A stretch of DNA of 38,513 bases from a virus (IMGVR_UViG_3300025914_000474:1-38513); one strand, 5' to 3'; shown: positions 3,002-29,880, counted from the stretch's first letter. Numbers and translations: made by a program. Notes: a model not told the origin generated them from the sequence alone.

Positions 3002-3797
3002 TGGCTTTCAAAAGCGTCTCAATCAACGCCAACCGTCCCTCCAGATCATTGATCCTGGTGTATACAGTGCCGGGCTCAGGTGACTCCCTTATTATTGATG
3101 CCCGCCAATACCATAGCTCAATAACATCCTCAGGCGCTACTGGATAGTTTGGGTACTCCCTCTTATTATCATTGTCTGATATAAGTATCAGCTTGTTATC
3201 CTCTTTAATTCTATTTAAAACCCTTTTTAAAACGATACCATCAGTTTTAGTGACCACTATATAGATACGCCTATCCCGTATATCATTAAATGATTCAACG
3301 TACCTGCCTATAGCTATAGATCCGCTGTGATGTGTTGGCAGCATTGAGTTTCCTTTGATCTCAAATGCCCTGTGTGTTTGCCCTTTTAAACCAGGTAGGT
3401 TAATAGATTGCAGTGTCTCAGTATACTCAGGATCAGCAAACCCATTCAAATAACCTGCAGCTGCCTTTGCGGTAACAAATAAAGTATTCTCCTCCTGGGT
3501 TGAGCTATCAATTGTCAGGATTTTAGGAGCGTTTAAAGCAGGGAAAGAACCTGTCTTTTTTGAGATAGGTGCAATAATGGGTGCAACATTAGGTGCAATT
3601 TCTTTCCCATCAATCAACCAGTCGTATGTTTTGTGATAAATTCTAACAATCTGCTTGATAGTTTCAAGTGTAGGGTATTGTTTGCCTCCCTCAATTTGAG
3701 CATAGTTTGGCCTTTTGAGTCCTATGGATGTTGCAAAATCCTCCTGACTCAATCCCGCTTCCTGTCTTAACTCTTTTAACCGGGCGTAGATGCTCAT
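2997..3797 (-). CDS. Phage repressor: XRE helix-turn-helix plus S24/LexA-type self-cleaving domain
   Basis: 266 residues. Residues ~1-60 form an XRE HTH (LSQEDFATSIGLKRPNYAQIE). Residues ~105-235 resemble the LexA/CI peptidase fold: an Ala-Gly bond at 114-115 (KAAAGYLNGF) is a candidate cleavage site, Ser151 lies in KGNSMLP and Lys191 in GIVLKRVL. Such repressors keep the prophage silent and autocleave on RecA activation after DNA damage. It is transcribed leftward, divergent from the early genes across a 94-bp operator region, the classic lysogeny-switch layout. Mu itself uses a non-cleaving c repressor, so SOS control is a lambda-like feature here (inference). Confidence 0.9.
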   Translation of the reverse strand: MSIYARLKELRQEAGLSQEDFATSIGLKRPNYAQIEGGKQYPTLETIKQIVRIYHKTYDWLIDGKEIAPNVAPIIAPISKKTGSFPALNAPKILTIDSSTQEENTLFVTAKAAAGYLNGFADPEYTETLQSINLPGLKGQTHRAFEIKGNSMLPTHHSGSIAIGRYVESFNDIRDRRIYIVVTKTDGIVLKRVLNRIKEDNKLILISDNDNKREYPNYPVAPEDVIELWYWRASIIRESPEPGTVYTRINDLEGRLALIETLLKAK

Positions 3798-4121: not shown

Positions 4122-4400
4122 ATGAAAAAAGTACTATTAATTGCCAGTATCACTATTGTATTATTTACAAACAAGTCAAATGCTCAGACAGTGGTAAGCG
4201 CTGGAGGCGTAACCATTAAGTTGAACACTGAGCAGGTTTCATACCTCCGCAAATTTAATAACAGCGCCATCAATAAGGCGCTCTCAGGCAGCATCAACAT
4301 CAAGTATAACTCCACTGCAGATGTAATCATATCCCTGCTTAAAAACAGAAAGCCAGTAAAGGATACCGCTACATTAATTGCCAAACAAAGCCATAAATAA
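4122..4400 (+). CDS. Small secreted hypothetical protein
   Basis: 92 residues. MKKVLLIASITIVLFTNKSNAQ is a clear Sec signal peptide ending in NAQ, typical of Bacteroidota. The mature part is about 70 residues without recognised motifs. A CCACAATAAAA leader word ends 11 bases before the ATG. It sits between the Ner-like gene and the transposase, an unusual place for an exported protein. Superinfection exclusion or envelope modification by the prophage is possible, but nothing in the sequence shows it. Confidence 0.65.
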   Translation: MKKVLLIASITIVLFTNKSNAQTVVSAGGVTIKLNTEQVSYLRKFNNSAINKALSGSINIKYNSTADVIISLLKNRKPVKDTATLIAKQSHK

Positions 4401-4404
4401 AACA

Positions 4405-4450
4405 ATCCCGGCTTAGAGAATAGCCAGCAGAGCGATACTGCAGCCGGGAT
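4405..4450 (+). repeat. 46-nt bulged stem-loop element, copy 1
   Basis: Outer stem ATCCCGGCT (4405-4413) pairs with AGCCGGGAT (4442-4450). A 13-nt bulge follows on the 5' side, then inner stem GCAG/CTGC closes a 7-nt loop. It begins 4 nt after the preceding stop codon and ends 14 nt before the transposase ATG. There is no T-run, so it is not a standard terminator. Same length and architecture as the copies at 9092, 9401 and 10199. Confidence 0.85.
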
Positions 4451-4464
4451 CATTAACCCATAGA

Positions 4465-6447
4465 ATGAGGATACTGGATAATATATTGTTTATTGAATTT
4501 GCCGAAATGGAGCTGTGTGATGTTCCACGCCGGACAATATTATCATGGGACAATGTTAAGGATCCATCTGATAAGCGTAAAGTGCTGATCCGCTATGATA
4601 AGTTAAAGGATAAATACCAACATGCTATCATTAAAAAGTTTGGTGATCCTTATTTGTATTGCCACAACCAACTCATTAAGCAATACCTGAGAGTAGATGT
4701 TAAGGCAATAGATTTCTTTTCGAGCGTGTACAGGGTTGCTGATGGATCTGCACTAAAGCCAGAGCGCCAAAGGGAGTATGTTACATGCGCCAACTGGCTC
4801 AACTTACTTATAGAGCTGGATAATAACTGGAGCAATTGCAAAAAATTCTTAGGTATGGCTGCTAAGCCAGAGCTGTATGATGCAGTTATAAAGATTTTTG
4901 AGGCTGAGGTAATTGATCTGCCTAAAACATATCAAACCATTAAGCGCAAAATAGCTGATTATAAAACTGAGAGTTATTACTGCCTACCATCTAAAAAGTT
5001 TGGCAATAGCAATAGTAAAAAGGTCAAGGATGAGGAAAATCATGCTTTACTGATTGAAATGCTGAGCCATCCAGCTCAATATGATGATACTTTCATCTCA
5101 ATAAAGTACAATAAAGTAGCTGAGCAGGTAGGATTTAAGACAATAACCCCGGTTACTGTAGGTAATTACAGGCATAAAAACGCTGTAATTATCAATGGAT
5201 ACCGCAAAGGTAAAGAGGTTTGGTATGATGAGGCTGGTAAAGTTATCCATCAAAACAGGCCATCAGCTCCACTATTATTGATCAACTCTGATGATAATGA
5301 GCTGGATTTATACTTTCAGCAGGTTAAGGTTAACAAAAAGGGCCATAACGTTGCACATCATTACTACAGACCTACCTTATACGTGGTAATTGATGCCTTT
5401 AACGATCTCATTTTAGGCTATGCAATAGGTGATACAAACACTCAGGATCTGGTTAAAGCAGCTTATTTGAACGCTGCAAACTACGTTAAGCAAATGACAG
5501 GAGGCCGGTACTTCTGGCATCAGATAAAAACTGACCGTTGGGGTATTGATCCCAAAAAGAAAAATGATTTTTCTCAATGGTTTAGCGCTCAGGCAGAGTT
5601 TACACCTACTCAACTAAAAAACTCCAGAGGTAAAGTTATTGAACAGAGCTTTAGAGGCCACTGGAGCAGCAAGCTAAAAGAATTATTCCCGCAAAACTAC
5701 TCAGGGACTAACATAACCAGCAAAGGCAAACTAAATAGAGAGTGGGTTGAATCCAACAAACACAATTTCCCGACCATTGACCAGGTATCTGATAAGGTAA
5801 GCCAGTTCATTAATGCCATGAGGCAAATTGAAGTTAAAGGAACTGGCAAAACCAGAGAGCAGGTTTGGCGGGATGCGTTTATGACAATGCAGGAAAGCAA
5901 AAAACGTCTGATCAGTGATGAGCAGCATTTTAATCTCCTGGGATATACACATTTCAACTCCTATAACAACCGCATAGAGAGCAATAGAGTTACCAAAAGC
6001 GGATTAATGCCGACCATAAACGGCCAGCAATTCATTTTTGAAGTGCCTAAAAATATGTTTCTGGATACCATTGGCACTGAGGTACACATCAAATATGATC
6101 CATACGATATGAGCCAGATCCTGGCTGTAAGTAAGGACGAAAAACTTAAAATGGTTTGCAATCAATATGAGCGGATGCCAATGGCAATTGCTGATTACAC
6201 ACCAGATACTCCAGCAAAATTAAACAACCTTATTGGTGAGAAAATAAGCCATACTAAGCAAATAGCTGCAGGTAAAGAGCAGCGTTTAAACACCCTTAAA
6301 AGGATGCAGATGGATGCAGAGAGCGCTCTCAGAGCGGGTGTAGTGGTTAAGGAGCTTAAACATTCAGCAACCAGGATTTCAGAGGGTGATTTTTCGAGCT
6401 ATGAGGAGGTTGAGGAGGATGATATTGATATCAGGGATATGATGTAA
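4465..6447 (+). CDS. MuA-like DDE transposase
   Basis: 660 residues, close to MuA's 663. It cuts and joins the phage ends to target DNA for integration and replicative transposition. The retroviral-integrase-like core shows a candidate DDE triad: Asp310 (LYVVIDAFNDLILGYAIG), Asp357 (IKTDRWG) and Glu393 (KVIEQSFRGHW), the last in the IExxFR context typical of MuA. An N-terminal DNA-binding region and a C-terminal acidic tail (EEVEEDDIDIRDMM) follow the MuA plan; in Mu the C-terminus contacts MuB and ClpX. The MuB-like ATPase gene is next, 59 bp downstream. Confidence 0.93.
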   Translation: MRILDNILFIEFAEMELCDVPRRTILSWDNVKDPSDKRKVLIRYDKLKDKYQHAIIKKFGDPYLYCHNQLIKQYLRVDVKAIDFFSSVYRVADGSALKPERQREYVTCANWLNLLIELDNNWSNCKKFLGMAAKPELYDAVIKIFEAEVIDLPKTYQTIKRKIADYKTESYYCLPSKKFGNSNSKKVKDEENHALLIEMLSHPAQYDDTFISIKYNKVAEQVGFKTITPVTVGNYRHKNAVIINGYRKGKEVWYDEAGKVIHQNRPSAPLLLINSDDNELDLYFQQVKVNKKGHNVAHHYYRPTLYVVIDAFNDLILGYAIGDTNTQDLVKAAYLNAANYVKQMTGGRYFWHQIKTDRWGIDPKKKNDFSQWFSAQAEFTPTQLKNSRGKVIEQSFRGHWSSKLKELFPQNYSGTNITSKGKLNREWVESNKHNFPTIDQVSDKVSQFINAMRQIEVKGTGKTREQVWRDAFMTMQESKKRLISDEQHFNLLGYTHFNSYNNRIESNRVTKSGLMPTINGQQFIFEVPKNMFLDTIGTEVHIKYDPYDMSQILAVSKDEKLKMVCNQYERMPMAIADYTPDTPAKLNNLIGEKISHTKQIAAGKEQRLNTLKRMQMDAESALRAGVVVKELKHSATRISEGDFSSYEEVEEDDIDIRDMM

Positions 6448-6458
6448 ATCCCATAAAC

Positions 6459-6476
6459 GGCCCCGGTTAAAGGGCC
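6459..6476 (+). other. Stem-loop between transposase A and B genes
   Basis: GGCCC (6459-6463) and GGGCC (6472-6476) can pair around an 8-nt loop. The interval starts with ATCCC directly after the transposase stop, as the 46-nt elements do, and is followed by CCACAATAAAA. It may be a degenerate relative of those elements, but the sequence match is weak. Confidence 0.4.
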
Positions 6477-6506
6477 ATTAATGAGCCACAATAAAAATCA
6501 AATATA

Positions 6507-7376
6507 ATGACAAACGATTCAAAAATTAAAATTAAAAGCCTGCTGCAGGATTTTGTATCTGGATTTAGCAGCCAGGCAAAGGCTTCAAAGGCCCTAACTG
6601 ATGTATCTGAGGGCACAATATCTCAGATCCTAAATGATAAATGGGCGCTAATTGCTGATCGCATGTGGATAAACATAGGTAAGCAGGTAGGCTTTGAGGC
6701 TGGCAACTGGAACAACGTGCCAACCAATAACTATAAAAAGATTAAAGAGCTTTTAACGGATGCAAAGGATCTGAGCCGGGTTCATGCTATTACTGCAGGT
6801 GCTGGTTGGGGCAAAGATACAGCAGCAAAGGATTTTGATAATGAGAACGACAATGTTTATCTGATCAATTGCGGAGATTACTTTAACAGGAGGTATTTTA
6901 TGATAGATCTACTCCGTAAAATGGGATTAGATACAAACGGATCATTGCCAACCCTGGTGGAGCGTGCTGTTACTGAAATTAACAGGGCGGTTAAGCCTAT
7001 CATTATTATCAATGAGGCTGATAAGCTGCCTGATTCTACCTTATATTTCTTTATCACCATTTACAACCTGTGTGAGGGCAAATGCGGTATTGTGCTAATG
7101 GCAACCAGGGCGCTGATTGACAGACTAACGGTTAACGGTGTACCTCGCAATAAAAAGGGATATCCTGAGATTTTCTCCAGGTTAGGCAGCAAGTTTATTG
7201 AGTTGCAACGGCCATCCAGAAAAGATATCACCATGATCTGTACTGGCAACGGAGTAACTAATCCTGATACTATAGCTGAGATATGCAATAGCTGCCTTAA
7301 CGTGAATGGAGATCAACGCAGGGCAAAAAAAATGATCCAAAACAAAGCAGAAGTTAAGGGAGATCTTGCAGCATGA
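6507..7376 (+). CDS. MuB-like transposition ATPase / target-DNA activator
   Basis: 289 residues. Residues ~1-65 form an XRE-like HTH (SQAKASKALTDVSEGTISQILN), as in MuB. The AAA+ core follows with a P-loop-like TAGAGWGKDTA at 96-106 and a hydrophobic Walker B strand, KPIIIINEADKL. The P-loop is off-consensus: the residue after Lys103 is Asp, with Thr next. MuB binds target DNA in an ATP-dependent way, delivers it to MuA and confers target immunity. Its position directly after the transposase supports the call. A CCACAATAAAA word ends 10 bases before the ATG. Confidence 0.88.
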   Translation: MTNDSKIKIKSLLQDFVSGFSSQAKASKALTDVSEGTISQILNDKWALIADRMWINIGKQVGFEAGNWNNVPTNNYKKIKELLTDAKDLSRVHAITAGAGWGKDTAAKDFDNENDNVYLINCGDYFNRRYFMIDLLRKMGLDTNGSLPTLVERAVTEINRAVKPIIIINEADKLPDSTLYFFITIYNLCEGKCGIVLMATRALIDRLTVNGVPRNKKGYPEIFSRLGSKFIELQRPSRKDITMICTGNGVTNPDTIAEICNSCLNVNGDQRRAKKMIQNKAEVKGDLAA

Positions 7377-7621
7377 TCACTATAGAATTTGAGGACAAAG
7401 GCCAGGATTTTCTTGAATGGGATATAGATTCCGAATCTGGCAAAGTAGTCGATTGCAGGCCATTTCAAGCCAGCATCTGGACTAAATTTCATGTTGCCTT
7501 GCATGATCAGTTGGAGGTGGGTGATAAAGTTGATATCTGTGAGGATCCGATTGATTATAACAGTACTGAACAGTATTTCAGAACAGTAAACTATAAAATT
7601 ATCTCAGTAAAGGAGGTTTAA
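7373..7621 (+). CDS. Hypothetical early protein, 82 aa
   Basis: It overlaps the MuB-like gene by ATGA, indicating translational coupling. The product is acidic with a beta-strand-rich pattern (LEVGDKVDICEDPIDYN…YKIISVKEV), without recognised motifs. It belongs to the same early operon; function unknown. Confidence 0.7.
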   Translation: MITIEFEDKGQDFLEWDIDSESGKVVDCRPFQASIWTKFHVALHDQLEVGDKVDICEDPIDYNSTEQYFRTVNYKIISVKEV

Positions 7622-7623
7622 AA

Positions 7624-8043
7624 ATGAATACACTACCTAAAAAAAAGCATTACAGCATAGTTAAACTGCAAATATTAAACAATGAGCAGTTGGTGCAGGC
7701 AGTACTGGATTGGGATAATGAGCAGTACTGCTGGTTTAAGTATGAGGCTGGCATTGCTTATGCCAAACGCATGACAGATAATGATGCTATTGGCTTTGAT
7801 TTCCTAATCAAAACAACCTTTTACTGGAACTGGTGGAAAAACGAATGGGCAAAGAGAGATGCAGAGTTTTTACAGTACTACTCTGGCACCTCAAATAAGT
7901 CTTTGCTGCATGATCAATACCTTTTCCAGCACAATATACAGCGCTTAAAAAGTGATGACCTGATGGAGCGTAAAGCCTGCTCAATGGTAGGTTATTGCTT
8001 TGATGAGCTGCATAAAAAGGGTAAAAAGGAATTAGTTAAATAA
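7624..8043 (+). CDS. Hypothetical early protein, 139 aa
   Basis: It starts 2 bases after the previous stop. The product is rich in aromatic residues (tryptophan/tyrosine: TFYWNWWKNEWAKRD), probably all-helical and soluble. No signal peptide, membrane segment or known catalytic motif. Coupled position in the early operon suggests a role in early replication or host takeover, but the sequence gives no function. Confidence 0.75.
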   Translation: MNTLPKKKHYSIVKLQILNNEQLVQAVLDWDNEQYCWFKYEAGIAYAKRMTDNDAIGFDFLIKTTFYWNWWKNEWAKRDAEFLQYYSGTSNKSLLHDQYLFQHNIQRLKSDDLMERKACSMVGYCFDELHKKGKKELVK

Positions 8044-8051
8044 TCAGCGAC

Positions 8052-8399
8052 ATGGTAAAGTTAAAATTAAACAGGGAGGAGTTGCAGGTGATTACACTAT
8101 GCACAAACCCTCGATTATTAGAGCAAAGGATATTAGGATCTATAAAAAACCAGCACCTCACAGATCTGGAATACCTGTTTATACTGATGGATATTGGAGA
8201 AAAGCTGACTAAGAAATTTTATTTCAGCTGTAAGCCTAAAAATAACATATCTCTAAAGCCTGCGGAGGTCGCTGCTTATTTGACTTATATGGATGAATTA
8301 CAAGCAGGCCGATGGGATCCATATACGGGAAATGTGATTGAGCAGGTAAAAAACCAGCTGCACCAATCATTAACAAACTATAAACAACGCATTTTATGA
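8052..8399 (+). CDS. Hypothetical early protein, 115 aa
   Basis: Helical, soluble, about 115 residues with no recognised domain. The central part (KPAEVAAYLTYMDELQAGRWDPYT) looks like a packed helix pair. It is separated from the previous gene by only 8 bases and overlaps the next small ORF at ATGATGA. Function unknown. Confidence 0.75.
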   Translation: MVKLKLNREELQVITLCTNPRLLEQRILGSIKNQHLTDLEYLFILMDIGEKLTKKFYFSCKPKNNISLKPAEVAAYLTYMDELQAGRWDPYTGNVIEQVKNQLHQSLTNYKQRIL

Positions 8400-8551
8400 T
8401 GAGTGATAAAAAAAAGGAGCTGGAGGAGGAGATAAAAGCACTGGAGGAGCGCTTGCAAACCTTACCAGATAATCAGTTTGAGGAGCGCATTGAGATCCGC
8501 AAAAAACTGATCAGAAAACGAATTGAATTAGGACAAACAATAAACATTTAA
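8396..8551 (+). CDS. Small coiled-coil protein, about 50 aa
   Basis: Two adjacent in-frame ATGs at 8396 and 8399 overlap the preceding TGA. From 8399 the product has 50 residues and reads MSDKKKELEEEIKALEE…, a strongly charged Lys/Glu/Arg helix with heptad-like leucines. Stop at 8549-8551, 10 bases before the Gam gene. The tight spacing and amphipathic helix make it credible despite its size. A helper or subunit of neighbouring early proteins is possible. Confidence 0.65.
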   Translation: MMSDKKKELEEEIKALEERLQTLPDNQFEERIEIRKKLIRKRIELGQTINI

Positions 8552-8561
8552 AATTAAAATC

Positions 8562-9086
8562 ATGGGAAAGACACGCCAAAAGAGGGTATTACTACCAAAC
8601 ACAATTACTAAAGCTGAGGCTGAGGAGGCATTTGCAGATTATGCTCAGTCAGATGCAAAGCAGCAACAACTTACCTCTAAAATGGATGAGGCTATTACAA
8701 AAATAAGAGACAAGTACGCTGCAGAGATCAGTGAGCTAAGCGAAAAAAAGGAAAGCGCATTTGAGATAATGCAAACCTATGCCGAAAACAACAGGGATGA
8801 TTTTGGAAAGAAAAAATCTATGGATTTAACGCATGGTACAATCGGTTTTAGGACTGGCACTCCAGCATTAAAAGCAGCCAAAGGCTTCACCTGGAAAAGT
8901 ATCACGGTATTATTATCTAAGGGGTATCCTGATTTCGTAAGACAGGTTACTGAGCCAGCTAAGGATAAGATACTGGCAGATCGCCTAACACCGGGCACAA
9001 GGGTTATGATGGCTGAGTGCGGTATAATAGTAGATCAGGCAGAAACATTCTTTGTAGAGCCTAAAAAGGAGCTTGTAGAGGCCTAA
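8562..9086 (+). CDS. Mu Gam-like DNA-end-protecting protein
   Basis: 174 residues, the length of Mu Gam. Residues ~15-80 form a long charged helix, then a compact domain with KKSMDLTHGTIGFRTGTPALK, which matches the Gam family pattern of an L-hydrophobic-GxIxFR strand pair after the coiled coil. Gam is a Ku-like dimer that binds double-strand DNA ends and blocks host exonucleases such as RecBCD/AddAB. The early-operon position after A and B matches Mu. Confidence 0.87.
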   Translation: MGKTRQKRVLLPNTITKAEAEEAFADYAQSDAKQQQLTSKMDEAITKIRDKYAAEISELSEKKESAFEIMQTYAENNRDDFGKKKSMDLTHGTIGFRTGTPALKAAKGFTWKSITVLLSKGYPDFVRQVTEPAKDKILADRLTPGTRVMMAECGIIVDQAETFFVEPKKELVEA

Positions 9087-9091
9087 TAATT

Positions 9092-9137
9092 ATCCCGGCT
9101 TAGAGGATAGCAAGCAGAGCAGTACTGCAGCCGGGAT
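9092..9137 (+). repeat. 46-nt bulged stem-loop element, copy 2
   Basis: Same plan as copy 1: perfect 9-bp outer stem (9092-9100 with 9129-9137), 13-nt 5' bulge and 4-bp GCAG/CTGC inner stem with a 7-nt loop. It starts 5 nt after the Gam stop and is followed by a CACAATAAAA leader before the ORF at 9161. Confidence 0.85.
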
Positions 9138-9160
9138 CCACACAATAAAAAATTAAAACA

Positions 9161-9412
9161 ATGATTTCATTTTACAAAGCGCCCATTGAACATGGGGAAA
9201 ACCTGCATTATGAAAGGTTAATGCAGTTTGCAGAGGCGGTGATCACTCAGCGCCCTGATTCAAGTTTGCACTCAGTATTAAGTATTCTGAGGACTTACAT
9301 ATCCATAACCCAAACAAAGACAAACTTTCATGCCTCAGGTAGGAAAAACGAGATTGTAATCAAGTCCAGAATAACAAAAAAGCCTCTGGCATTTATCAAA
9401 ATCCCGGCTTAG
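9161..9412 (+). CDS. Hypothetical cassette protein, 83 aa
   Basis: Small soluble protein without recognised motifs. The gene lies exactly between 46-nt element copies 2 and 3, and its stop codon (TAG 9410-9412) is provided by copy 3. Its last residues, IPA, are encoded by the element's first bases. This cassette-like embedding is its most telling feature; function unknown. Confidence 0.6.
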   Translation: MISFYKAPIEHGENLHYERLMQFAEAVITQRPDSSLHSVLSILRTYISITQTKTNFHASGRKNEIVIKSRITKKPLAFIKIPA

Positions 9413-9446
9413 AGAATAGGCTGCAGGTCGTTACTGCAGCCGGGAT
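9401..9446 (+). repeat. 46-nt bulged stem-loop element, copy 3
   Basis: Same 9-bp outer stem (9401-9409 with 9438-9446), 13-nt bulge and GCAG/CTGC inner stem. In this copy GGCTGCAG (9419-9426) can also pair with CTGCAGCC (9434-9441), giving an alternative 8-bp hairpin that competes with the outer stem. It overlaps the stop of the preceding ORF and ends 4 nt before the methyltransferase ATG. Confidence 0.85.
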
Positions 9447-9450
9447 CAAC

Positions 9451-10194
9451 ATGAAACAATTAACATTAGGTAGTTGGTATTCGGGGGGGGTAGATGGGTT
9501 TGCATACGCAGCCTCAGAGCTTGGAATCAAAACCCTATACCACATAGAAAGCAACAAAGATTTATGGAAATATTTAAAAAACACTTATGGATCTGATACA
9601 CCAATACACAGATACGATGGATTTTGCGGAGCCAAAAACCTGCCCTTTACAAACATTATCGCAGGTGGAGATCCATGCCAGCCATCCAGTACATCCGGGC
9701 TCAGAAAGGGCAAAACAGATGACCGTTACCGCTGGCCGGAAATGTTTAGAGGAATTTCAGAGCTCCGGCCCGATTGGGTTATTAACGAAAATGTTGCTGG
9801 ATCAGTCAGTAACATGGTACTCGACCAAAAGATTACTGATCTGGAAAGCATCGGTTACACCTGCCAAGCGTTCAATATACCAGCTGTTGCCGTTAACGCC
9901 GACCATACAAGGCAAAGAATTTGGCTTATTGCCAACTCCAATGTACAAAGATGGGGAGAGTTATTACATTTTGACACTGGATCAATCTTTCAAAAGAGTG
10001 GACAAAAGTATTCATTGGGGGCACAAGGCAATGCTTTTTTACGGTTTGAAAAAAGCGAAAGTCAACCCGCAATTCTCCCTCTTTCTCATGGGATACCCGA
10101 CCACATTACTAAACTTGGAGCGGTCGGAAACTCAATTGTGTATGTCATTCCTATGATAATAATGCAGTGCATTCAACACATTGAAAATATATAA
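9451..10194 (+). CDS. C5-cytosine DNA methyltransferase, possibly phase-variable
   Basis: 247 residues. Motif I region GSWYSGGVDGF (7-17), motif IV AGGDPCQPSS with nucleophile Cys76, motif VI INENVAG (111-117), motif VIII HTRQRIWLIAN (152-162) and motif X LGAVGNSIV (222-230) are all present. It should transfer methyl groups from SAM to a cytosine in a specific DNA word. No nuclease partner is adjacent, so it is probably an orphan enzyme protecting phage DNA from restriction or marking replication. The target-recognition segment between motifs VIII and X is short. A run of eight Gs lies in motif I, and a 189-codon ORF overlaps in another frame. It lies between 46-nt elements 3 and 4. Confidence 0.88.
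   Translation: MKQLTLGSWYSGGVDGFAYAASELGIKTLYHIESNKDLWKYLKNTYGSDTPIHRYDGFCGAKNLPFTNIIAGGDPCQPSSTSGLRKGKTDDRYRWPEMFRGISELRPDWVINENVAGSVSNMVLDQKITDLESIGYTCQAFNIPAVAVNADHTRQRIWLIANSNVQRWGELLHFDTGSIFQKSGQKYSLGAQGNAFLRFEKSESQPAILPLSHGIPDHITKLGAVGNSIVYVIPMIIMQCIQHIENI
9483..9490 (+). repeat. G8 homopolymer inside methyltransferase motif I
   Basis: Eight consecutive Gs encode part of Ser-Gly-Gly in motif I, at codons 11-13. With G7 the frame meets TAG immediately after the tract; with G9 it runs into a stop about 40 codons later. A slippage-prone tract at this position is the usual form of a phase-variable methyltransferase. Confidence 0.75.
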
Positions 10195-10198
10195 CACA

Positions 10199-10244
10199 AT
10201 CCCGGCTTAGAGGATAATCAGCAGAGCAGTACTGCAGCCGGGAT
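10199..10244 (+). repeat. 46-nt bulged stem-loop element, copy 4
   Basis: Outer stem 10199-10207 with 10236-10244, 13-nt bulge and GCAG/CTGC inner stem. It begins 4 nt after the methyltransferase stop and is followed by CCACAATAAAA and the ATPase start at 10270. Together with copy 3 it bounds the methyltransferase as a direct-repeat cassette. Confidence 0.85.
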
Positions 10245-10269: not shown

Positions 10270-10944
10270 ATGGCAACTACAGGTATAAACGATTTTTTAA
10301 ACAAGAAATACAAAGAGTTGGATTTTGATGGAGAGTGGCTGGCCTCCTTTGGTAAGCCTGAGAAAAACTTTAAATGTTGTGTGGCTGGAGCCTCTGGCAA
10401 TGGTAAAACTGAGTTTGTAATTAAACTCACTAAGTATCTGGCCAGCTTTACTAAGGTGTACTACAATAGCCATGAACAGAAATTTAGCAAAAGCCTGAGA
10501 GATGCTTTACACCGCAATAATATGCGTGAAGTAAACGGGAAAGTGGTTTTTGCAGATGGAGAGAGTGTTGAGGAAATGGATGAGCGCCTGAGTAAACGTA
10601 ACAGCCCTGGAGCCATCGTAATTGATAGCCGGGATTATATGAAGCTCACTATTGATCAGTTTGTTTACCTGATTAATAAGTATCCACACAAATGCTTTAT
10701 AGTGATTTGCTGGGCCAGCGGATCTAAACCAAAGGGCTCACACGCTGAGGCCATTGAGTACTGCTGTGATGTAAAGATCCTGGTTAAAGATTTTAAGGCC
10801 TTAATGAGGAGCCGTTTTGGAGGTAACAAGCCCTTTGATATCTGGCCAGATCGTAATAACAAGGCCAAAACCCCGGCAAAAGGTGAGCAAAGCGACCTGT
10901 TTAGTGCCACATTAAATGCAGAAATACCCACAATAAACGCCTAA
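10270..10944 (+). CDS. RecA-fold / AAA ATPase of the early region
   Basis: 224 residues with a textbook Walker A at 40-47 (GASGNGKT) and Walker B at 114-119 (GAIVID). A third strand ending ICWASG (residues ~146-151) may be a sensor. The layout of a single small RecA-like core without HTH resembles phage recombination or replication ATPases such as Sak4-type or terminase-like NTPases, but I cannot assign it to one family. Its place after Gam suggests DNA replication or repair during transposition. Confidence 0.75.
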   Translation: MATTGINDFLNKKYKELDFDGEWLASFGKPEKNFKCCVAGASGNGKTEFVIKLTKYLASFTKVYYNSHEQKFSKSLRDALHRNNMREVNGKVVFADGESVEEMDERLSKRNSPGAIVIDSRDYMKLTIDQFVYLINKYPHKCFIVICWASGSKPKGSHAEAIEYCCDVKILVKDFKALMRSRFGGNKPFDIWPDRNNKAKTPAKGEQSDLFSATLNAEIPTINA

Positions 10945-29191: not shown

Positions 29192-29880
29192 TGGATTTAA
29201 TTAAAATACACGATTTACCTGAGGGCACTGCCATAGCCGATGGCCATGAGTTGCCAGTTTCCACCGGGCCGAACCCTGGAGATGTAAAGCGCTTTTCGAT
29301 GGCAATTTTAAAAGCCTGGATCATTGATTTTATTACTCCCCTTTTCACCGGGATCACGCAAGGCCCTGCCGGGCCTGCAGGCGCTCCAGGCGCTCAGGGT
29401 ATTCAGGGGCAAAAAGGTGACAAAGGTGATAAGGGAGATAAAGGTGATCAAGGTATTAAGGGCGACACTGGCCCGGCTGGATCTGTTGGCATACAAGGCG
29501 CAAAGGGTGACAAGGGCGATAAAGGCGATCAGGGTGCTCAGGGCGTTCAGGGTTTAAAGGGTGACAAAGGCGATAAGGGAGATAAAGGGGATCAGGGAGA
29601 GCGTGGCGCTGATGGAGGCATCCCGCCTGTAGAAATCCCTTTTGCAGCTGAAACCCCGTTGCCTATAGAATTGACTGATTTTCAAACCACGTATGAGGCA
29701 TTTGGTGCATACCCTGATATTATGGTGATATACACCTCTGGCCCAAATGCCGGAGATGAGATCAAAACGGCAACCATAAACAGAAACCCGGTTGCATCAC
29801 CTACAACGGTTACTATTAATGCAGCTGACTCAGGCTCTGATACCACTGATTTTGACATCATTATAATTATTAAATCTTAA
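29191..29880 (+). CDS. Collagen-like Gly-X-Y repeat fibre protein
   Basis: 229 residues. Residues ~58-143 are about 28 Gly-X-Y triplets (GPAGPAGAPG, GDKGDKGDKG, GERGADGG), which should trimerise into a triple helix. A short head and a ~85-residue C-terminal domain flank it. Phage collagen-like proteins act as fibre stalks. It precedes the large fibre. Tandem DNA repeats make length variation by recombination likely. Confidence 0.85.
   Translation: MDLIKIHDLPEGTAIADGHELPVSTGPNPGDVKRFSMAILKAWIIDFITPLFTGITQGPAGPAGAPGAQGIQGQKGDKGDKGDKGDQGIKGDTGPAGSVGIQGAKGDKGDKGDQGAQGVQGLKGDKGDKGDKGDQGERGADGGIPPVEIPFAAETPLPIELTDFQTTYEAFGAYPDIMVIYTSGPNAGDEIKTATINRNPVASPTTVTINAADSGSDTTDFDIIIIIKS

Follow-up and report, generated by a model that had tools for sequence, protein, structure and literature searches.

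In animal mitochondria (tRNA punctuation) and in plant mitochondria (t-elements), tRNAs or tRNA-like structures between the genes of a long transcript are signals for RNase P and RNase Z. The tRNA-like domain of tmRNA consists of an acceptor stem and a T-arm and has no anticodon arm. The punctuation model has been treated elsewhere (PMC5474008). Bacterial RNase P cleaves hairpins made of the acceptor stem, T-stem and T-loop alone; for instance, the AT1 hairpin, which combines these parts of tRNA-Phe, is, like minihelices, a model substrate (PMC11143913, PMC11221534). The 3' RCC of a substrate pairs with GGU in the P15/16 bulge of RNase P (PMC11143913, PMC11221534). Phage RNAs processed by RNase P include the M3 RNA and the C4 antisense RNA, and the T4 gene 32 mRNA is also a substrate (PMC11143913). 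The open-access literature on phage tRNA-like punctuation yielded nothing describing elements of the kind analyzed here.

The 38,513-nt viral sequence analyzed here (the window) contains four 46-nt bulged stem-loops at 4405, 9092, 9401 and 10199, all on the plus strand. That they mimic a tRNA acceptor stem stacked on a T-arm, without an anticodon, is well supported. The window is from a Mu-like phage with a MuA-like transposase, an AAA ATPase, a Mu Gam protein, a C5 methyltransferase and a second ATPase, and belongs to the Mu-like phages of Bacteroidota. The elements and the genes around them are:

4405..4450, plus strand: tRNA-like element 1, preceding the MuA-like transposase gene; matched by the descriptor and by covariance models
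4465..6447, plus strand: MuA-like transposase (PHROG 310 transposase, E 5e-27), downstream of element 1
6507..7376, plus strand: AAA ATPase in the MuB position (Pfam AAA_22), placed like MuB of annotated relatives
8562..9086, plus strand: Mu Gam-like protein (Pfam Phage_Mu_Gam), upstream of element 2
9092..9137, plus strand: tRNA-like element 2, after Gam; CCA follows T73
9161..9412, plus strand: 83-aa ORF with no assigned function, between elements 2 and 3; its relative in L001 is 46% identical
9401..9446, plus strand: tRNA-like element 3, holding the stop codon of the 83-aa ORF
9451..10194, plus strand: C5-cytosine DNA methyltransferase (Pfam DNA_methylase), between elements 3 and 4
10199..10244, plus strand: tRNA-like element 4, after the methyltransferase gene; CCA follows T73
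10270..10944, plus strand: phage ATPase (PHROG 6891), downstream of element 4

A first-pass annotation had described four copies in a single orientation with a shared plan, and its coordinates and orientation were confirmed. Each of the four copies can indeed form the 9-bp outer stem, 13-nt 5' bulge, 4-bp inner stem and 7-nt loop that it proposed, and this plan occurs six times in the window, counting both strands, against a shuffle mean of 0.15. MFE z-scores of the window copies are -2.4 to -3.1. As the annotation also stated, the copies are tied to stop codons: those ending at 4400, 9086 and 10194 lie 4-5 nt ahead of copies 1, 2 and 4, and the 83-aa ORF ends within copy 3 (stop at 9410-9412). 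Its claim that copies 2-3 and copies 3-4 enclose one gene each likewise holds, the genes being the 83-aa ORF and the methyltransferase gene, respectively.

Like the RNase P model substrates, the elements have an acceptor/T-stem stack of ~12 bp, a 7-nt T-loop, no anticodon arm and C74 after the discriminator base. Unlike the synthetic substrates, they are natural and intergenic and have an 11-13-nt linker or a mini D-hairpin, and their cutting is proposed by analogy. With mitochondrial punctuation and t-elements they share the placement of tRNA-like structures between the genes of a message, here that of a phage. By contrast, they are found in bacterial phages, lack an anticodon and are near-identical repeats, and their processing is again presumed from the likeness. 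M3, C4 and T4 gene 32 are single RNAs, whereas here a tRNA-half element is repeated at gene ends. tmRNA also differs in being a single gene, in carrying a tag reading frame and in accepting alanine, none of which is seen in the elements. Integron attC sites are also bulged hairpins after single genes; however, no integron integrase was seen among the early genes scanned (Pfam, PHROG), and the elements have a tRNA-type 3' end and occur as several subtypes before one and the same gene.

The 3' strand of the elements is unbroken, as in tRNA. The outer stem corresponds to the acceptor helix and the inner stem with its 7-nt loop to the T-arm, and the 11-13-nt linker, i.e. the "bulge", stands in for the D, anticodon and variable arms. 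The annotation's suggestion of an RNA element, for which it had listed processing among the options, stands in that the copies are structured, are tied to stop codons and gene borders and covary strongly, while the acceptor/T-arm plan had been overlooked. In element 1, the acceptor is formed by 4406-4412 and 4443-4449, the T-loop-like sequence is AGCGATA, and T73 and C74 follow. In element 3, the stack of acceptor and T-stem is complete at 12 bp, with the loop GTCGTTA. The 7-bp acceptor, 5-bp T-stem and 7-nt loop of a tRNA half were found with one T-stem mismatch in window copies 1, 2 and 4, in which the outermost pair (columns 22/38) is not formed and a 4-bp T-stem is left. The C and R of the T-loop signature C56/R57 (consensus TTCRANN) are present at loop positions 3 and 4 of the window copies, which were found independently of the descriptor scan that demanded these bases. 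The loops of type 1, the subtype in the window (AGCGATA), fall short of the full T-loop consensus; canonical TTCGA loops are present in G005, G182, TCUEAP3 and the Porphyromonas gingivalis phages.

A refined fold with a 7-bp acceptor (columns 2-8/39-45), a 3-bp mini D-hairpin (columns 9-11/17-19) and a T-arm explains the conserved bulge better than does a 9-bp stem with a plain bulge. In the type 1 linker, the possible mini D-hairpin is TTA-GNGRA-TAA, with three pairs, all cells paired and only G-U changes; in the CTGGAAGTCA-type linker, a GACT-GGA-AGTC hairpin is predicted. Among 11 distinct copies, in an alignment fitted to the annotation's structure and with only one gapped column, six pairs have both sides changed under the annotation's own structure and seven under the tRNA-like one (0 of 500 shuffles), and this signal is gone when the partners are slid. 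Several diverged copies are predicted to adopt an MFE fold other than the tRNA-like one, and their z-scores are weak. We found no canonical cloverleaf with an anticodon arm, the window having no tRNA called by ARAGORN and no Rfam match; for the mini-elements, Rfam gave no match at the gathering threshold and nothing relevant at a relaxed one. An intrinsic terminator was not found either, as the bases following the elements (TCATTAAC, TCCACACA, TCAACATG and TCCACAAT) contain no U-run.

Related elements are present in other phages and genomes, the metagenomic contigs among these being fragments. An exact-pattern search of IMG/VR gave L001 (two copies) and L006 (one copy); ATPase and transposase searches gave L008/L020 and L009/L019, with one copy each before MuA and a 12-nt bulge; a relaxed pattern added L033; and covariance models added two diverged copies in L023 and one further copy in L008. 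L006/L023 represent a distant phage (MuA 28% identical), in which the element nonetheless precedes MuA at the same position. The canonical T-loops TTCGTTT, TTCGAGA and TTCGAAT are found among the diverged copies of relatives; for instance, the copy at 5702 in L008 reads AACCCGCTATGGAGCATGGC-CGGGG-TTCGTTT-CCCCG-ACCGGGTT and the copy at 6573 in L009 reads AACCCGG-CTGGAAGTCAT-CCCCG-TTCGAGA-CGGGG-ACGGGTT. A descriptor of a 7-bp acceptor, an 8-17-nt linker, a 5-bp T-stem and a 7-nt loop with C at position 3 and a purine at position 4 gave 26 matches in 656 kb, against 2.0 expected. True members all lie between genes, at stop codons, and the few matches inside genes look like chance. The descriptor added L024 (two copies flanking one gene, 12 of 12 bp), L066 (TTCGAAT) and L078. 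Because the L078 element is between tail-region genes, the elements are not confined to early genes. On its contig, the tRNA-like element is of the CTGGAAGTCA type (L085:11541-11585, minus strand) and lies near tail genes, away from any MuA found. With longer linkers and an obligatory C74, the descriptor found two elements in the Elizabethkingia phage TCUEAP3 and one in G503. The structures in relatives grade from fuller tRNA-like forms down to minimal, bare acceptor/T-arm units, and the elements define an RNA family that Rfam does not contain. When 395 and 197 Bacteroidota genomes were searched with covariance models under strict filters, no more type 1 copies turned up and, therefore, type 1 looks rare in the sampled genomes. 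A scan of genome contigs with the type 1 core pattern gave chance matches only, without outer stems, and L018, L032, L043, L079 and L163, which resemble the family, were rejected because they have no stem or are located in coding sequence.

The recurrent position of the element is before the transposase gene. Of 45 MuA start regions sampled from both phages and genomes, the strict descriptor matched in 11 (L143 needs a 37-nt linker), with the element 14-26 nt upstream of the MuA-like ATG, compared with 1 of 9000 shuffled windows. For other genes, the descriptor matched in 5 of 351 cases, all five being members of the tRNA-like element family. Further pre-MuA cases lie outside the strict descriptor: MT835523, seen by eye, G738 (29.3 bits) and the P. 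gingivalis phages. In the last of these (10 phage records), a fuller tRNA-like structure, matching the Rfam tRNA model with 43 bits and not called by ARAGORN, is present just before MuA. In BK068089.1, the annotated MuA start of these phages at 3296 falls inside this structure (L028:3281-3351), and the true start is likely the ATG at 3369. Many MuA loci have no element, including the close relatives L021 and G007. Thus, the element is not essential, and it has been gained and lost. ARAGORN calls tRNAs near early genes of Mu-like phages at L084:1767-1850 (Arg CCT) and L060:8904-8981 (Lys TTT), and the Arg CCT tRNA begins ~10 nt after a stop codon, like the mini-elements.

The elements also have the 3' end of host tRNA genes. 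In the tRNA genes readable in loci L095-L124 of three Bacteroidota genomes (G503, G182 and G238), C74 is encoded in 98%, CCA in 8% and CAA in 35%, and the commonest end is NCAA. All 24 element ends tallied have N73-C74, with CAA commonest and with only 18-20% C at flanking bases; in this tally, each related copy counts on its own, the second scan admitted only matches with C74, and four of the copies fit only with a 6-bp acceptor register. In the first descriptor scan, which did not require C74, family members carry it too. N73 of the elements is mostly U, as opposed to the RCC described for the RNase P contact. The GGU of the P15/16 bulge is present, as GGGUAG, in the RNase P RNA of G300 and G238, from which the window's own host may differ. 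The type 1 5' part CCCGGCTTA (window 4405-4418) matches a stretch, ACCCGGCUUA, that is conserved in host RNase P RNA (L159, L160). Because the stem covaries in relatives, this match is probably a coincidence, and a role as RNase P RNA decoy was rejected since the stem covaries away from ACCCGGCUUA in L006 and L033.

The set of features recognized by RNase P is kept in the elements while the decoding half of the tRNA is dropped, and the most likely function is, therefore, that the message is cut at gene borders. We think it rather probable that the elements are anticodon-less pre-tRNA mimics that act as "tRNA punctuation" and are processed by host RNase P, RNase Z or both. In this model, the copies would sit as tRNA mimics in an early polycistronic phage message, and host RNase P would cleave on the 5' side of the acceptor helix, RNase Z close to its 3' side, or both would act. 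The split would leave the upstream message with a defined 3' end and give the downstream transposase, methyltransferase or ATPase gene a new leader that is short, unstructured and, in the window, ~5-27 nt long. Chances seem about even for the more specific proposal that, in Bacteroidota Mu-like phages, both host RNase P and host RNase Z cut the mimics and thereby fix the 5' end and the dose of the transposase and other genes. It counts against the model that the upstream stop is inside copy 3 and inside copy 2 of L024, from which a 5' cut would remove it; at such sites, folding and cutting may compete with upstream translation, or the 3' cut alone may be used. The non-consensus type 1 loops, the 4-bp T-stems of three window copies, the close relatives with no element before MuA, the deviating folds of several diverged copies and the frequent U at N73 also count against it. 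The model predicts exact RNA ends. If it is correct, the minimal tRNA half recognized by RNase P would be used in bacteria as a natural, repeated mRNA signal, tRNA punctuation would exist outside organelles, with a bacterial-virus counterpart of the mitochondrial system, and transposase expression would be tied to host tRNA maturation.

The first-pass annotation had also considered a recombination site for swapping single-gene cassettes. Such swapping could use a dedicated, integron-like recombinase or homologous recombination between repeats. The annotation had proposed a comparison of the genes between copies in relatives, and gene content does vary: the window order is Gam, element, 83-aa ORF, element, methyltransferase, element, ATPase, while L001, with the order DUF3164, element, ORF84, element, ATPase, has one element fewer and no methyltransferase, and L023 has different small genes between elements. 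However, the methyltransferase gene is preceded by type 1 in the window, by the CTGGAAGTCA type in G005 and by the TGGAGCATGG type in G006. An element is retained there although its subtype differs, which speaks for a role at the site itself rather than for a recombination site that moves around. Likewise, single copies stand alone before MuA in several phages, the early genes scanned showed no integrase, and the helices covary and end in a host-like tRNA 3' end. Cassette swapping is thus not supported as the main function, and we regard it as very unlikely. The window methyltransferase gene (9451-10194) is 86% identical to the G005 copy (L071:6631-7398) compared with only 59% for MuA, which suggests recent exchange, and homologous recombination between copies is plausible as a by-product. 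The annotation had held that relatives with the same genes but no elements, along with an absence of covariation, would refute its reading; the former exist, as G005 and G006 have no element between the methyltransferase and ATPase genes, but base-pair covariation is present.

A tRNA-like cis-regulator could also act without being cut, with a host tRNA-binding factor (a synthetase, EF-Tu or a tRNA-modifying enzyme) or a phage protein controlling translation or stability of the neighboring gene. Strong conservation of linker and loop bases within subtypes (TTAGNGRATA, CTGGAAGTCA) and the position 14-26 nt before MuA are in line with such binding, and the stops inside some copies suit it more than they suit a 5' cut. 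By contrast, acceptor and linker sequences differ widely across phages, which share no more than the general tRNA half and C74, and an enzyme that reads all tRNAs, therefore, fits better than a sequence-specific binder; regulation by binding alone is, in our opinion, rather unlikely. Decaying tRNA pseudogenes or a functionless, spreading tRNA-derived repeat would agree with within-genome copies being mostly more alike than copies across genomes and with the full tRNA genes in similar slots in jmh43 and G574, but not with compensatory changes, retention of C74 and recurrent placement before very different MuA proteins, and this origin is less likely again than cassette swapping. Least likely of all are RNase III processing hairpins, as between phage T7 early genes: although the bulged hairpins, which lie between genes of an early operon and on a single strand, recall these, the helix is just 12-13 bp, and RNase III would need neither the kept loop and linker bases nor N73-C74. 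A palindromic DNA operator is unlikely, as the conserved bases are in the loop and linker and the helix varies in sequence while pairing is kept.

Other repeats were seen in the window. TATTTAAACGG-type repeats lie in short gaps at 2983, 13928, 18924, 27544 and 37345 and are perhaps regulator or transposase sites. A CCACAATAAA motif lies ahead of several start codons (10916, 13043 and 22899) and also after elements 2 and 4, and a late gene has collagen-like 9-nt repeats at 29370-29615.
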